NCBI RefSeq assembly: GCF_027859075.1
Contig: NZ_JAQIBL010000039.1
Span: 1 to 37,271 of the forward strand
Reading direction: 5' to 3'
From: Oceanispirochaeta sp.
Lineage (GTDB): Bacteria > Spirochaetota > Spirochaetia > DSM-2461
DNA length: 37,271 bases
Shown here: in pieces, positions 30,733-37,271 of the stretch
How the letters are laid out: each line of letters starts with the position of its first letter
Numbering within the stretch: the stretch's first letter is position 1
The notes under the pieces: generated by a model
The model's input: only the letters and a program-made list of their open reading frames with translations
What the model was told of the DNA's origin: nothing
Databases searched by the model: none
Made by a program: the position numbers and the translations under genes

Positions 30733-31110
30733 TCAGGGGAGTTCTCCCAAGAGCCTCTGAGATGCCGTCCAGGCTTTCTCTTTCGTTGAGTAACTGTCAA
30801 GAGAACTGTCCTGAACCCAGCCAGTCAGCTTATCCTTACTGATATTATACCAGAGAGAACGCTCTCTTCCATTTATGAAATGCACTGATTCGATCCGAAC
30901 CAGATCACCCTTCCTCAATGTCGTCACAATATGCTGATCATCATCAGGTTCTTTATTTATTTTCAGATAGGATACATTCACCACACCCCAGTTGGTCGTC
31001 CCTTTCATGATGGGAGTCGCTGGTAAAATAATGTCAGGGACCTCAATTTTCAGAACACAGGACAGGGGTATAAAAAGGAATACCAGGAGATATATGAAAA
31101 TCCGCATCAT
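30733..31110 (-). CDS. Putative lipoprotein with an SH3-like domain
   Basis: 125 residues. The N-terminus MMRIFIYLLVFLFIPLSC gives a spirochaete-style lipobox (PLSC) with Cys18 lipidated. The mature part looks like a bacterial SH3 domain: a VVNVSYLKINKEPDDD strand region, a TLRKGDLVRIES strand-turn, and LWYNISKDKLTGWVQDSSL, whose GWV is the usual SH3b signature. Such domains often bind cell-wall peptides, but binding is not shown here. The ATG overlaps the uvrB stop (ATGA) and has AGGGGAG upstream. Confidence 0.8.
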   Translation of the reverse strand: MMRIFIYLLVFLFIPLSCVLKIEVPDIILPATPIMKGTTNWGVVNVSYLKINKEPDDDQHIVTTLRKGDLVRIESVHFINGRERSLWYNISKDKLTGWVQDSSLDSYSTKEKAWTASQRLLGELP

Positions 31111-33095
31111 AGGTTCTCCCCTTTCAGTTCGACGATTTCATCACGGAGTACAGCGGCCTCTTCAAACTCCATGTTCTTTGCCTTCTCAAGCATTTCCTTT
31201 TCAAGGGCCTTAATGAGTTTTTTCTTTTGTACAGGATCCAGAAGGTTCACATTGTCCTTCATGACAGAAATCGTCATCTCTTCGGCTTTCTTTTTCAGAT
31301 CAATTTTTCTGATGAGTATATCCTGCACTGCTTTAATAATCGTTTCGGGAGTAATGCCATGATCTTCATTGTATTTTTTCTGGATTCCCCGCCGGCGGTT
31401 TGTCTCACGAATCGCTTCGATCATAGCGGAAGATTCCCGGTCGGCATACATAATGACCCTTCCCTTGGAGTTTCTGGAAGCCCTGCCGATTGTCTGGATC
31501 AAAGCCGTAGCGGATCGGAGAAAACCGACTTTATCCGCATCCATAATGGCAATGAGAGAAACTTCGGGGATGTCCAGACCTTCTCTGAGGAGGTTGATGC
31601 CCACAAGGACATCATATTTCCCGAGTCTGAGATCGCGAATGATTTCGACCCGTTCAATGGTTTCGACTTCGGAATGAAGATAATTGACCTTCAACCCGAG
31701 TTCATTTAGATAATCAGTCAGATCCTCGGCCATTCTTTTTGTCAGAGTTGTGATCAAGACCCGCTCACCTTCGTCAATTCTCTTTCTGATTTCGCCATAT
31801 AGGTCCTCCATTTGACCTTCGGTCGAACGGATTTCAATGATGGGATCAAGGAGACCAGTGGGCCGGATAATCTGCTCGACCACCAGTTCTGACTTTTCCA
31901 ACTCCTCCTGTCTGGGAGTGGCGGAAACATAAAGAAGCTGTTTTTTAAAGTCCTCAAATTCAGAATATACCAGAGGTCTGTTATCCAGGGCTGAAGGAAG
32001 ACGGAATCCGAAATTCACAAGATTGGTTTTACGGGATCGATCCCCTTCATACATGGCCCGGATCTGGGAGAGGGTGACATGGGATTCATCGACTATGGTC
32101 ATAAAATCGGGGGGGAAATAATCCATAAGTACCTCGGGACGTTCCCCAGCCTCCCGGCCTGACAGCTGGCGGGAGTAGTTTTCAATCCCCGAGCAATACC
32201 CCATTTCCTCCATCATCTCAAGATCGTATTCTGTTCTGGTTTTCAGGCGCTGAGCCTCTACAATCTGACCTCTGGATTCAAAAAATTCCACCTGTAGGGT
32301 CATTTCATCCCTGATAGCGGTCAATGACTTCTGAACACTGTCTTCAGGCATGACAAAATGTTTGGCCGGATAGACAGTACACATGGTAAGATCTTCCAGA
32401 ACTTCCCCCGAAACCGGATTAAATCGTTTCATAGATTCAATTTCATCCCAGTCAAAGCTGATACGGTAGGCTTCTTTCAGGTAGGCAGGATAGAGTTCCA
32501 TCACATCTCCCCGAACCCTGAATTTCCCCCTCTCCAGTACCATATCATTCCGTTCATACTGAAGAGAAATCAAATTCCTGATGATATCATCCCGGTTATA
32601 AATCTCCCCGACCAGGAGCTGGACTCTCATATCTTTATAGGAGGAAGGATTTCCAAGACCATAGATGCAGGAGACTGTGGAAACAATGAGGACATCCGTA
32701 CGTTCCATCAGACTCATGGTTGCCGAGAGCCTCATTCTGTCGATTTCATCATTAATAGAGGAATCTTTCTCAATATACAAATCACGGGAAGGAACGTAAG
32801 CCTCCGGCTGATAGTAGTCGTAGTAGGAAACAAAGTATTCCACCGCATTGTGGGGAAAAAAATCCTTAAACTCCCTGTAGAGTTGAGCCGCCAGAGTTTT
32901 ATTATGAGAGATAACCAGTGTTGGCTTTTGAATATACTCCACAATTTTAGCCATTGTGAAGGTTTTTCCCGAACCTGTTACGCCTTGAAGGGTCGCCCTC
33001 CGGGCACCATTCAGGAAAGCATCAGACAATTTTTCAATCGCATTGATCTGATCCCCCGCAGCGTCAAAGGGAGAAACGACTTTAAATTTATTCAT
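31107..33095 (-). CDS. uvrB: Excinuclease ABC subunit B
   Basis: Damage-verification helicase-like subunit of nucleotide excision repair. The 662 residues match the family (about 660-675). The Walker A GVTGSGKT is at 38-45. The beta-hairpin region reads VSYYDYYQPEAYVPSRD and the DEAD-like box is DESHVT. The motif VI segment is QTIGRASRNSKG, and the C-terminal UVR motif (KALEKEMLEKAKNMEFEEAA region) that binds UvrC is present. It lies 36 nt after htrA, and a palindrome covers its ribosome-binding region (33104-33118). Confidence 0.98.
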   Translation of the reverse strand: MNKFKVVSPFDAAGDQINAIEKLSDAFLNGARRATLQGVTGSGKTFTMAKIVEYIQKPTLVISHNKTLAAQLYREFKDFFPHNAVEYFVSYYDYYQPEAYVPSRDLYIEKDSSINDEIDRMRLSATMSLMERTDVLIVSTVSCIYGLGNPSSYKDMRVQLLVGEIYNRDDIIRNLISLQYERNDMVLERGKFRVRGDVMELYPAYLKEAYRISFDWDEIESMKRFNPVSGEVLEDLTMCTVYPAKHFVMPEDSVQKSLTAIRDEMTLQVEFFESRGQIVEAQRLKTRTEYDLEMMEEMGYCSGIENYSRQLSGREAGERPEVLMDYFPPDFMTIVDESHVTLSQIRAMYEGDRSRKTNLVNFGFRLPSALDNRPLVYSEFEDFKKQLLYVSATPRQEELEKSELVVEQIIRPTGLLDPIIEIRSTEGQMEDLYGEIRKRIDEGERVLITTLTKRMAEDLTDYLNELGLKVNYLHSEVETIERVEIIRDLRLGKYDVLVGINLLREGLDIPEVSLIAIMDADKVGFLRSATALIQTIGRASRNSKGRVIMYADRESSAMIEAIRETNRRRGIQKKYNEDHGITPETIIKAVQDILIRKIDLKKKAEEMTISVMKDNVNLLDPVQKKKLIKALEKEMLEKAKNMEFEEAAVLRDEIVELKGENL

Positions 33096-33103
33096 ATGGT
33101 ATC

Positions 33104-33118
33104 ATTCCCCTGGGGAAT
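33104..33118. promoter_or_regulatory. uvrB: Perfect 15-bp palindrome over the uvrB translation start region
   Basis: ATTCCCC-T-GGGGAAT (plus strand), 7-bp arms around one central base, in the 36-nt htrA-uvrB gap. On the uvrB mRNA the second arm contains the only good Shine-Dalgarno-like sequence (AGGGGA) before the ATG, about 10 nt away. It could be a repressor operator or an RNA hairpin hiding the ribosome-binding site. It does not match LexA boxes I know. Confidence 0.6.
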
Positions 33119-33131
33119 TAACTCCTGGATT

Positions 33132-34346
33132 TTAGTTTGTTGGTCTTTCTGACAATTTGATTCTTAATATTTTAGTCTGTTTCCTTCTGAGCACTTCCAC
33201 TTCGACCTCATCTCCCGGCCTGGTTGCTTCCAGTGCGCCGTAAAAATCGGAGAGAGTCGCGATGACCACACCATTGATCCCGGTGATGATGTCTCCCCCC
33301 AGATAAATCACGGAATTGCCGCTTCTTACAGCCTGATCCGGATCTCCCCCCAGCAATCCTGCATCCTCGGCATTTCCACCATTGATGACTCTGGAGATCA
33401 AAATTCCTTTTGAAAGGGGCAGCTTCCCATAGCGGACAAGGGAAGGAAATAGCTGGACAGGAACAATATCAATCCAGCCTCTCTGAACCTTTCCAAATTT
33501 AATAAGATCCGGCACGACTCGCCGGGCTGTATCCACAGGGATGGCAAAGCCAATACCCACCGAGCCGCCTGAGGGGGTATAAATCATTGTATTGATACCG
33601 ATCATCTCCCCTTTCATGTTTATGAGGGGTCCTCCGGAGTTGCCCGGATTAATGGATGCATCCGTTTGAATCATATCACGAATCACAAGGCCCGAGTCAT
33701 TTTTCAAAGGCCGTCCCAGACCAGAGACAATGCCCGTAGTCAAGGTCCGCTCAAAGGCAAAAGGATTCCCTATGGCAATGACCTTCTGCCCTACTTTCAA
33801 ATGATCTGATGTCCCGAAGGGAATGGTTACCAGCTCCTTGTCTTCAGGATCAAATTTCAGAACAGACAGATCATTTTCATAATCTGTTCCCACGACTTCC
33901 CCTTCATACTGACTACCGTCTGCCAGGGTGATGTAGACCTTATAGGCCTTGTCTACCACATGATTATTGGTCAGGACAAAGCCACGCTTATCAATAATGG
34001 AACCTGAACCGGAGGACCCTTCCTGTGGAATGGGTTCGAGAAACCAGTTGTAGCCCACAACTTCTGTCGTTACATTCACAACCGCTTCGTTGTATCTCTC
34101 ATAGATTCCGATATTTGTCAGTTCGTCCTCAGAATAATCACTGCTGTTAAATACTGGATTCCCCAATGAAGTAGCAGGCTGAGATGGAAAGATTTCAACT
34201 TCAGGAAAAGAGCTGTTTGTCAGGGCTGGTATATCCGAATTAAAAGAAGAGAGGGATATGAGGCCGAAACCAAAAAGGAGCAGGAATACAAGGAGAGCCG
34301 TTCCTATTGAATAAAAAATAACCTGATTCCTACTGTATAGCTTCAT
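33132..34346 (-). CDS. HtrA/DegP-type serine protease with one PDZ domain
   Basis: 404-residue envelope protease. A single N-terminal hydrophobic helix (about 10-34) should anchor it to the inner membrane with the body in the periplasm. The trypsin-like catalytic triad is H129 (LTNNHVVDKA), D159 (YENDLSVLK) and S237 (NPGNSGGPL). A PDZ domain occupies about 295-400 (GGDIITGINGVVIATLSDF, split between strands). One PDZ and a membrane anchor make it DegS-like in layout, but many spirochaete HtrA proteins look like this. It has its own promoter and starts the uvrB unit, and it is divergent from the DA1-like gene. Confidence 0.95.
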   Translation of the reverse strand: MKLYSRNQVIFYSIGTALLVFLLLFGFGLISLSSFNSDIPALTNSSFPEVEIFPSQPATSLGNPVFNSSDYSEDELTNIGIYERYNEAVVNVTTEVVGYNWFLEPIPQEGSSGSGSIIDKRGFVLTNNHVVDKAYKVYITLADGSQYEGEVVGTDYENDLSVLKFDPEDKELVTIPFGTSDHLKVGQKVIAIGNPFAFERTLTTGIVSGLGRPLKNDSGLVIRDMIQTDASINPGNSGGPLINMKGEMIGINTMIYTPSGGSVGIGFAIPVDTARRVVPDLIKFGKVQRGWIDIVPVQLFPSLVRYGKLPLSKGILISRVINGGNAEDAGLLGGDPDQAVRSGNSVIYLGGDIITGINGVVIATLSDFYGALEATRPGDEVEVEVLRRKQTKILRIKLSERPTN

Positions 34347-34511: not shown

Positions 34512-35237
34512 ATGCATCCCCCTTGTTCCTATTGTGGAAAAACTATCCATGGAAAATATATTCTGGATTTCTGGGGCAATTCCTATTGTGCCTTCCATCT
34601 CAAAACCACTCCCCAATGTGACTATTGCGGACGATTCATTGGAACAAAAAGCACGAAGGGAGGGAAGGCCTATCAGGATGGCCGCCGAATCTGCGGAATC
34701 TGCCTGATGAACTCCGTAGACACTCCCCGGAAGGGCCTGAAAATATTGGAAGAGGTTCATGATTCTCTTGAGATTTCCGGGATTAAAATAAGACCTTTTA
34801 AACCGGATTTTGCCCTCATCAGCCGTTCTAAAATGAAACAGCGGGATAGAGTCAGCGCGGAGAAACAGGGCACTGCCACATACCAGAGAGAAACAAAAAA
34901 TGGTAAACTAAGCCATTATATAATGGAAATATATATCCTGGATGGCCTGCCAAGGGTTAATTTTATTTCAACCTCTGCCCATGAATTGATGCACATATGG
35001 TTTTACAGCCATAATATCACTGATGCATCCCCTGCTTTAGTGGAAGGGAGCTGTAATATGGCATCCTATCTGGTTCTGAAAAGTCTGAAGACTCTGGAAG
35101 CCGAATACCTGATCCAAGGCTTATTCTCCAGTAAAAGCAAAGTATATGGATCCGGATTCCGGAAGGTTCAGAAGCTGGCCGACAGGCAGGGAATCACCGG
35201 CTGGCTTGAGTATTTAAAAACGCATAAGCGAATTTAA
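34512..35237 (+). CDS. LIM-like zinc finger / DA1-type metallopeptidase
   Basis: 241 residues, no export signal. The N-terminal 65 residues carry two zinc modules, C5-x2-C8-x17-C26-x2-H29 and C36-x2-C39-x21-C61-x2-C64. This is close to a LIM domain, but with a 6-residue linker instead of 2 and Cys/His order swapped at the third and fourth ligands. The C-terminal half has the zincin motif H157-E-L-M-H161 (STSAHELMHIW) with a third ligand candidate E178 (LVEGSCNMASY). That pattern matches the C-terminal peptidase of plant DA1, where a HEMMH motif is followed by an EG-x-C segment. Substrates in bacteria are unknown. There is no clear ribosome-binding site; a TATGAT box at 34495-34500 would leave a leader of about 5 nt. 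It is divergent from htrA. Confidence 0.85.
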   Translation: MHPPCSYCGKTIHGKYILDFWGNSYCAFHLKTTPQCDYCGRFIGTKSTKGGKAYQDGRRICGICLMNSVDTPRKGLKILEEVHDSLEISGIKIRPFKPDFALISRSKMKQRDRVSAEKQGTATYQRETKNGKLSHYIMEIYILDGLPRVNFISTSAHELMHIWFYSHNITDASPALVEGSCNMASYLVLKSLKTLEAEYLIQGLFSSKSKVYGSGFRKVQKLADRQGITGWLEYLKTHKRI

Positions 35238-35452: not shown

Positions 35453-35941
35453 ATGGAATCTGGTATTTTTTATGCTGTTGCAATCCTATTATTGATTTTT
35501 TCTATCCTAAAAGACAGAAAAAAAACAAAACAAGCCGTCATGAAATCTATAAAAAGTCTTCTGGGATTGCTGCCTCAAATGAGTTTCATTCTGATCGTCA
35601 TAGGATTGAGTTTATCCATGCTTTCTACCGAGACAATTTCAGAAATTATAGGTGAAAATTCAGGAATCGCAGGTATTGCCATGGCAATTGCGACGGGAGC
35701 CGTGACACTGGTCCCAAGTGTCATAGCCTTTCCTCTAGGCGCCACATTACTTGACCAGGGTGCCGGCCTGTTACAAATAGCCGGGTTTTTAGCAGCCCTG
35801 ATGGGTATCGGCATTGTGACATTCCCCATGGAAAAACAATTTTTTGGTACTGAGTTTGCTTTGTACAGAAATATTGGCACTCTGGTCATGACCATAACAT
35901 TCGTGTTGGCTATTTCCGTTTTAATGGGAGGGACAGCATGA
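35453..35941 (+). CDS. Half-size permease subunit, first of a pair
   Basis: 162-residue integral membrane protein with about four or five helices (5-19, 40-58, 71-95, 105-125, 140-160). A basic loop (KDRKKTKQ) after helix 1 suggests its cytosolic side. The conserved part holds IGENSG (66-71), P88 with AFP at 92-94, a GA pair (103-104) and FFG (130-132). It resembles one half of DUF318/YraQ-ArsP-type permeases, though that family call is tentative. The ATG has AAGGAG 6 nt upstream. It overlaps the next gene by 4 nt and aligns with it without gaps (see finding). The substrate is unknown. Confidence 0.8.
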   Translation: MESGIFYAVAILLLIFSILKDRKKTKQAVMKSIKSLLGLLPQMSFILIVIGLSLSMLSTETISEIIGENSGIAGIAMAIATGAVTLVPSVIAFPLGATLLDQGAGLLQIAGFLAALMGIGIVTFPMEKQFFGTEFALYRNIGTLVMTITFVLAISVLMGGTA

Positions 35942-36468
35942 AAAAAATTAAAAAATATACCATGTCCCTGATGGCACTGGGGGCCCTTCTGATCCTGTAT
36001 TATTTAAAACCGGAAACGGCGGTCAGTTCTATGTCCATATCTCTTTCAAGCGCTGGTACAATGCTGAAAATTCTCCCACCAATTCTCCTGATCATTAATC
36101 TGCTGGATATTTGGATTCCCAAAGCAATCATTATCAGACATATGGGAGAGAATGCCGGATTAAAAGGTTATTTCTGGGCCATAGTGCTGGGAACGTTCGG
36201 GGCCGGACCCTTGTATGCCGCATTTCCTATTGCAGCGATATTAGCCAACAAAGGGGCCCGTATCTCGTATATCATATTTTTCCTGGGTGTTTGGACGACA
36301 ACGAAGCTACCTATACTCATGTACGAACTTAATTTTTTCGGATTAAAATTTACAGCGATCCATGTAATCACAGGATTTATTGTCTTTTTTATCATGTCTA
36401 TTCTTATGGAAAAATTTCTGAAAGGAAAGAAGCTGGACCTGGTATATGAGAAACTTTCAAAGATGTGA
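35938..36468 (+). CDS. Half-size permease subunit, second of a pair
   Basis: 176-residue integral membrane protein with about four or five helices (10-22, 44-60, 76-100, 108-130, 140-158) and a basic C-terminal tail (KGKKLDLVYEKL). It carries the same conserved pattern as its partner: MGENAG (69-74), P91 with AFP at 95-97, a GA pair (106-107), P125 and FFG (133-135). The start ATG overlaps the stop of the first subunit (ATGA). The pair probably forms a heterodimer equivalent to a full-length two-repeat permease. No metal-binding cysteines of the ArsP type are seen, so arsenic export should not be assumed. Confidence 0.8.
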   Translation: MKKIKKYTMSLMALGALLILYYLKPETAVSSMSISLSSAGTMLKILPPILLIINLLDIWIPKAIIIRHMGENAGLKGYFWAIVLGTFGAGPLYAAFPIAAILANKGARISYIIFFLGVWTTTKLPILMYELNFFGLKFTAIHVITGFIVFFIMSILMEKFLKGKKLDLVYEKLSKM

Positions 36469-36733
36469 TTTAAAGCGTTCTTTGATCTTTTAAAATGCCG
36501 AATGACTACCGGCACTGTCCAAATTCTTCCAGAAGCGGACTGTAGATACACACCCTTTTTCTCAGTCTTCTTAATTACGATTTCTTATATAGTGAGATGA
36601 GACCATCTCATTTAATAGAATTCTTGTTGAAACATGACTAAAGGAAATAGGAATCATTCTTCTACAAAATGGGTTTTATTGTCATATTCCATTTTCCATT
36701 TTCTTGAAATCCACTTCACTCTCAACGGAGAAA
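36469..36733. other. Non-coding stretch between permease pair and ccdA
   Basis: No gene supported; an in-frame extension of ccdA back to 36634 has no ribosome-binding site and no family similarity. Two hairpins are visible: a weak 5-bp one at 36496-36514 (TGCCG / CGGCA) and a better one at 36593-36610. Neither is followed by a long T run. Confidence 0.5.
36593..36610 (+). terminator. Possible weak terminator or operator hairpin
   Basis: Perfect 7-bp inverted repeat TGAGATG-AGAC-CATCTCA, extendable by a G-T and an A-T pair, followed by TTTAAT on the plus strand. The short, AT-interrupted T tract makes intrinsic termination uncertain. Confidence 0.35.
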
Positions 36734-36762
36734 TTGACTACACACACTTCTTGTGTTATTTT
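36734..36762 (+). promoter_or_regulatory. ccdAB promoter with internal inverted repeat
   Basis: TTGACT (36734-36739) and TATTTT (36757-36762) are separated by exactly 17 nt. Between them lies ACAC-TTCTT-GTGT (36744-36756), a small inverted repeat placed as an operator would be for autoregulation by the antitoxin. The expected RNA start falls at or next to the ccdA ATG at 36769. Confidence 0.6.
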
Positions 36763-36768
36763 ATACAC

Positions 36769-36987
36769 ATGAAAACGAGAACAAATGTGAGTATAGACCG
36801 TGAGTTATTGGAATCAGCCAGGAATCAGAATATAATTATTTCTACACTACTTGAAAAAGCGTTGAAGGAAGAATTAAAGAAAAAAGCTGAAGAAGCCTGG
36901 ATTGAAGAAAATAAAGCCAACCTGAATAGGTATAATCAGCGGATTACTGAAGTGGGTGCATTCAGTGATGGTCTGAGGACCTTTTAA
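36769..36987 (+). CDS. ccdA: CcdA-type antitoxin
   Basis: 72-residue antitoxin of a type II system. The N-terminal part (MKTRTNVSIDRELLESARN) fits the ribbon-helix-helix DNA-binding domain used for autorepression. The C-terminal part WIEENKANLNRYNQRITEVGAFSDGLRTF (described as W-x2-EN, then YN, then the G-x-FSD-x2-R-x-F end) is the intrinsically disordered CcdB-binding tail and matches the family closely. The stop overlaps the ccdB start (TAATG), the usual coupling. No Shine-Dalgarno sequence precedes the ATG, and the promoter suggests a leaderless transcript. Confidence 0.92.
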   Translation: MKTRTNVSIDRELLESARNQNIIISTLLEKALKEELKKKAEEAWIEENKANLNRYNQRITEVGAFSDGLRTF

Positions 36988-37271
36988 TGAAACAATTTGA
37001 TATATTCAGAAATAAAAATCCGAATAGCTCAAAGGAGGTTCCCTTTCTAATCAATCTTCAATCTGATCCAATGGATCTTCTGGCAACCAGGATAGTTGCT
37101 CCTCTTAGAAGAGAAACAGAATATTCAGACCAGAAACTTTCCCGGGTTCACATCCCCATTAGTATCGGAAAGGAGGAATATATAATTTTCATATCAGAAT
37201 TGGCGGCCATTCCCTCTGAACTGATGGGTGAGAAAGTCATGAATGCGGCAGTCCTGAGACAAGAATTTACA
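36987..37271 (+). CDS. ccdB: CcdB-type toxin, C-terminus cut by window edge
   Basis: 95 residues visible, open at the right edge; F-plasmid CcdB is 101 residues, so only a short end is missing. F-CcdB poisons DNA gyrase. Family features are the MKQFDIFRN start, FLINLQSDPMDLLATRIVAPL (the strand holding VQSD in F-CcdB, then RIV-x-PL), and ISELAAIPSELMGEKV. The residues needed for gyrase poisoning are at the extreme C-terminus in F-CcdB and lie outside the window, so activity cannot be judged. It pairs with ccdA by a 1-nt overlap. Confidence 0.9.
   Translation, partial: MKQFDIFRNKNPNSSKEVPFLINLQSDPMDLLATRIVAPLRRETEYSDQKLSRVHIPISIGKEEYIIFISELAAIPSELMGEKVMNAAVLRQEFT

Follow-up and report, generated by a model that had tools for sequence, protein, structure and literature searches.

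The window analysed here, the whole 37,271-nucleotide stretch of Oceanispirochaeta sp. contig NZ_JAQIBL010000039.1, encodes a protein of 241 amino acids that joins a LIM-like pair of zinc knuckles to a predicted DA1-like zinc peptidase. Judged by its sequence, membership of the DA1-like family is clear. With a probability of about 0.7, we favour the reading that it is a soluble, cytosolic, ubiquitin-free DA1-like zinc endopeptidase or processing peptidase, with the LIM-like module docked on it and restricting its substrates. It is an added compact member of an already known family. The features of the gene are the following:

34512-35237, forward strand: open reading frame of the compact LIM-like/DA1-like predicted zinc peptidase, 241 amino acids
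34524-34598, forward strand: first zinc knuckle, C5-x2-C8 ... C26-x2-H29, with C5, C8 and H29 invariant or nearly so
34617-34703, forward strand: second zinc knuckle, C36-x2-C39 ... C61-x2-C64, kept in relatives lacking the first; in plant DA1, C274Y falls in the third CxxC/H pair
34719-35234, forward strand: gluzincin-type peptidase domain, residues 70-241, by alignment to ERAP2 and tricorn factor F3
34725-34775, forward strand: long helix, residues 72-88, bridging zinc module and peptidase domain (DSSP of the AlphaFold2 model)
34980-34994, forward strand: HELMH zinc-binding/catalytic motif, H157-H161, with E158 as predicted general base
35043-35045, forward strand: E178, predicted third zinc ligand, in an EGSC motif

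Membership of the DA1-like family

The initial annotation had described the protein as a bacterial peptidase of DA1-like type carrying a double zinc finger that resembles LIM, with two four-ligand zinc modules (C5/C8/C26/H29 and C36/C39/C61/C64) ahead of H157-E-L-M-H161 and a downstream E178. The reading frame starts with ATG and spans exactly 34512-35237, and every one of these residues, from C5 through H157-E158-L159-M160-H161 to E178, was found at its given position; such a residue pattern, as read from the sequence, is far beyond chance. The core of the description is supported by the AlphaFold2 model presented below and by a significant match to the Pfam DA1-like model PF12315 (E 5.5e-12, 46 bits against a curated cut-off of 25), which is the family match that the annotation had called for. 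The same model is matched by 73/73 sequences of our alignment, composed of the window protein and 72 relatives. No NCBIfam model matched the 241-residue protein, and no Pfam M1 match was found in it either.

The surprise implied by a DA1 relative in a bacterium did not hold, as PF12315 has many bacterial members and homologues from Roseiflexus were already published (PMC5322733). In fact, Dong et al. 2017, where Burroughs et al. 2011 is cited, reported that the Roseiflexus homologues share the LIM-like region with its four CxxC/H pairs (PMC5322733). A sequence search for a solved structure of a DA1 protein returned none at a meaningful E-value. In addition, a peptide of a cassava LIM protein, AHPFWVQKYCPSHEHDGTPR, resembles the window stretch FWGNSYCAFH, a resemblance too short to serve as proof (PMC9737768).

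The peptidase domain and its active site

The annotation had compared the order and motifs of the protein to those of plant DA1, and this comparison stands: the module precedes the peptidase, and the window active site, HELMH-X15-VE, has spacing identical to the HEMMH-X15-EE published for Arabidopsis DA1 (PMC5322733), while close relatives carry HELMH-X15-EE. Six residues of the site, H157, E158, L159, H161, E178 and G179, are invariant in 73/73 aligned sequences.

The AlphaFold2 model of the full protein, built on the 73-row alignment, reached a pLDDT of 96.3 and a pTM of 0.92. A Foldseek search with this model gave nothing at E 0.001 or better. Structural alignment of residues 70-241 by VIA-align placed them against ERAP2 (6ea4; Z 11.6, rmsd 2.7, 149 residues aligned), tricorn factor F3 (1z1w; Z 11.2) and a Colwellia aminopeptidase (Z 10.4). 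It is thus a well-supported prediction that residues 70-241 adopt the M1-aminopeptidase (gluzincin) fold, with the HExxH and the glutamate on successive helices. A metal site formed by H157, H161 and E178 is predicted because of this fold match to M1 enzymes and because the residues are invariant. The proposal that the three residues would come together in the structure is borne out indirectly by the model, where helix 148-166 of the M1-aligned domain carries HELMH and the helix after it, 174-192, carries E178.

As M1 aminopeptidases are the best fold matches, the protein could instead be a general cytosolic M1-like aminopeptidase, trimming N-termini with little selectivity, for which the zinc module would merely be structural. 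We consider this unlikely, since plant DA1 cuts inside proteins (PMC5322733) and since patchy occurrence, in 6 of 26 genomes of the order, speaks against a housekeeping peptidase.

The LIM-like zinc module

Four CxxC/H pairs stand directly ahead of the peptidase and are conserved among 65 aligned modules. In the 73-sequence alignment, the ligands of the second knuckle (C36, C39, C61 and C64) are invariant (73/73), and those of the first are nearly so (C5 in 72/73, C8 and H29 in 71/73 each), with position 26 being H in 57 sequences and C in 14. The second knuckle looks integral to the peptidase because its four cysteines are invariant even where the first knuckle is missing, which suggests, at the level of sequence, that it is an obligate part.

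Modelled alone, the module had a pLDDT of 87 (blocks 84-90) and a pTM of 0.66; in the full-length model its blocks rose to about 95-98, and this higher confidence in context is as expected if the module packs on the peptidase. Foldseek with the module alone found weak matches to treble-clef pairs, among them RING domains, GATA fingers and the LIM domains of PINCH, with E above 0.001 and a global rmsd near 9 Å over about 60 residues to most LIM chains. This rmsd suggests that, in the model, the two knuckles are oriented otherwise than in LIM domains. Searched up to E 0.1, the window protein gave no PF00412 match. The N-terminal module reads as a pair of treble-clef zinc knuckles that is LIM-like and not a canonical LIM. 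The annotation had called it an imperfect LIM, with a 6-residue linker and swapped ligands, of ancestral or independent form; the imperfect LIM stands, and an independent origin is rejected, as the CxxH second pair and the long linker are family-wide in the alignments.

The same Foldseek matches, which include DNA-binding zinc fingers of the GATA type and protein-binding LIM domains, would also fit a protein whose main functional part is the zinc module, binding a partner protein or nucleic acid, with a degraded or rarely used HExxH domain. This is very unlikely: the predicted catalytic residues are all invariant (73/73), which is unexpected for a dead enzyme, and they are kept in some relatives that lack the first knuckle. 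A single knuckle (one CxxC...CxxC) before the peptidase was seen at L102, L103, L104, L098 and L100, from Eggerthellaceae, Naasia and two Spirochaetota.

Distribution and history

Occurrence within the order is patchy: the 6/26 genomes carrying the gene include the window's own, and the other five genomes of its genus all lack it. Our survey of 84,980 species genomes confirmed at least 179 relatives, of which the best 80 were kept. These best 80 come from Spirochaetota, Zixibacteria, Latescibacteria, Ignavibacteria/Melioribacteraceae, Calditrichota and Marinimicrobia, and furthermore from Bacteroidota, Cyanobacteria, Nitrospirota, Fusobacteria and Actinobacteria.

A hydrophobic, signal-peptide-like N-terminal stretch, judged by a simple hydropathy test and no dedicated signal-peptide predictor, was present in 59 of the 76 relatives judged, the spirochaetal ones counted among the 76. 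Many bacterial relatives have further zinc knuckles upstream, and in the six such full-length proteins scanned PF00412 was matched every time (6/6, E down to 2e-17), these canonical LIM domains preceding the LIM-like module. For instance, the proteins at L035:7626-8726 and L080:4789-5955 combine a signal-peptide-like N-terminus with extra PF00412, in up to two scoring stretches. From their sequences, LIM domains appear to be exported in bacteria of the Zixibacteria/Ignavibacteria type. The 241-residue protein has no hydrophobic N-terminus and its first CxxC already begins at residue 5, in agreement with the earlier statement that a signal peptide is absent, and the spirochaetal protein would be located in the cytosol.

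In the tree, the window protein and nine spirochaetal relatives form one clade (100/99), which sits within a mainly Zixibacteria, Latescibacteria and Ignavibacteria group (96/85), under a midpoint root that leaves the direction unproven. Parsimony counted 4 changes for exported or cytosolic and 3 for long or short proteins. The simplest reading, which we infer, is one acquisition in Spirochaetota followed by the loss of the export signal and the extra LIMs. In other Spirochaetota (L017, L019 and L020), the DA1-like protein is more distant and has several CxxC knuckles, and in L020 the HExxH is apparently altered to HEYAR.

Since most bacterial members found look exported, the original job of the DA1-like family probably lay outside ubiquitin signalling. 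Burroughs and colleagues in 2011 reportedly argued that LIM domains of prokaryotes work alongside peptidases in roles unrelated to ubiquitin. In the host genome, no ubiquitin-type E1 was detected, the ThiF-fold proteins being MoeB/ThiF-like and TcdA-like, and no Prok-JAB peptidase was found with working controls; searches of the host for E2 and ubiquitin were empty, as were their controls.

Genomic context

The divergent HtrA protease that the annotation placed next to the gene is real, and is an incidental neighbour:

33132-34346, reverse strand: htrA/Do-family serine protease (TIGR02037, 7.3e-90)

A functional pairing of the peptidase with this HtrA, for example as a cytosolic branch of a pathway of proteolysis under envelope stress, would suit the divergent orientation and the short 165-bp intergenic region, yet it is close to refuted: uvrB-htrA is kept in five same-genus and two related-genus genomes while the gene beyond htrA varies and is never the peptidase gene, so that the adjacency is not conserved and carries no weight, and the peptidase relatives in other spirochaetes have no cluster in common with the window's htrA. 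Over 31107-34346 of the window and beyond, all of the genus keeps the uvrB-htrA pair, and the spot next to htrA, where the gene differs between genomes, is a synteny break or an insertion hotspot.

The survey of genomic neighbours that the annotation had suggested brought no conserved operon partner across spirochaetes, where the neighbours differ except among closely related genomes; without a conserved neighbour, the surroundings of the gene do not point to a substrate. A MATE transporter and other genes that recur beside it in Ignavibacteria seem to reflect synteny between related genomes and were rejected as partners, as was another cluster of neighbours, united by a shared C-terminal sorting-type domain. 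An anti-phage or phage gene was likewise rejected: neither PADLOC nor PHROGs gave a match, and plasmid and phage records gave none either. In one related genus (L105 and L107, the latter at L107:6436-8697), the DA1-like gene overlaps by 4 bases a gene for a DNA/RNA non-specific endonuclease (Endonuclease_NS), with a Crp-type regulator upstream.

Downstream in the window, 35453-36468 encodes two small membrane proteins, of which the second matches the ArsP_1 permease (PF03773) and the first does so weakly; they are apparently one permease split into two half genes. Positions 36634-37271 hold a CcdA-type antitoxin gene (PF07362, 5.8e-21) and then, overlapping it at the contig end, a reading frame that is probably the CcdB toxin. 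This CcdA-type locus may mark a variable segment.

Proposed mechanism and significance

According to Dong et al. 2017 (PMC5322733), the zinc peptidase DA1 of Arabidopsis is latent until ubiquitylation activates it. It cleaves inside proteins, and the C274Y substitution, in the third CxxC/H pair of its LIM-like module, abolishes both ubiquitylation and peptidase activity; how the module controls the peptidase was left open by Dong et al. 2017 (PMC5322733).

For the spirochaetal protein, we propose that H157, H161 and E178 would hold Zn2+ and that E158 would activate the attacking water, catalytic activity and zinc occupancy being presumed from the conserved residues and the model. The LIM-like knuckle pair would dock rigidly on the catalytic domain, and the zinc module would probably be a peptide-binding exosite or a latch, restricting cleavage to particular cytosolic partner proteins without ubiquitin. 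Such a gating role may exist by analogy with plant DA1, from which the latch idea is taken; it counts against the analogy that activation of the plant enzyme depends on UIMs and ubiquitylation, both absent from the window protein. Perhaps the spirochaetal protein is DA1 in its smallest form, cytosolic and ubiquitin-free, with a LIM-like module that gates the peptidase unaided, through partner binding or through its zinc or redox state; this more specific version is possible, though doubtful. If it were true, the latch would be older than the ubiquitin control of plants, and the latter would have been added later, through UIMs.

In plants, DA1 governs the size of organs and seeds. The spirochaetal protein is a fairly ordinary find, and its use lies in offering a ubiquitin-free version of a DA1-family enzyme: a 241-residue homologue that lacks UIMs and any extra LIM, and whose fold is confidently predicted, is a small and practical subject for crystallography and for ubiquitin-free tests of gating.

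Comparison with known systems

Compared with M1 aminopeptidases (ERAP1/2, tricorn factor F3 and IRAP), the window protein has the same predicted peptidase-domain fold over about 149 residues and an HExxH with a downstream glutamate. In M1 aminopeptidases, 18 residues separate the second histidine from the glutamate, whereas the window protein has 16 and lacks the M1 accessory domains.

With canonical LIM domains (PF00412), the module shares a tandem pair of treble-clef zinc knuckles, PINCH and other LIMs being among its best Foldseek matches. However, the canonical LIM domain has a 2-residue linker and HxxC as its second pair, while the window module has a linker of 6 residues and CxxH.

Like plant DA1/DAR proteins, the window protein has a LIM-like module followed by the peptidase, a HExMH-X15-(E/x)-E motif with the same spacing and a significant PF12315 match, and its four CxxC/H pairs are found in plant and Roseiflexus proteins alike. 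Unlike plant DA1, it is only 241 residues long and has neither UIMs nor a canonical LIM: no UIM or PF00412 match was found in the window protein, which starts 4 residues ahead of the first zinc ligand.

The bacterial LIM-DA1 proteins of Zixibacteria, Ignavibacteria, Latescibacteria and Calditrichota (L034-L097) share the LIM-like and DA1-like core at about 26-40% identity, and the Roseiflexus proteins (Dong et al. 2017; Burroughs et al. 2011) have this same core. Unlike most bacterial LIM-DA1 proteins, those of the spirochaetal clade, made up of the window protein and nine relatives, carry that core without the export-type stretch and without the extra LIMs.
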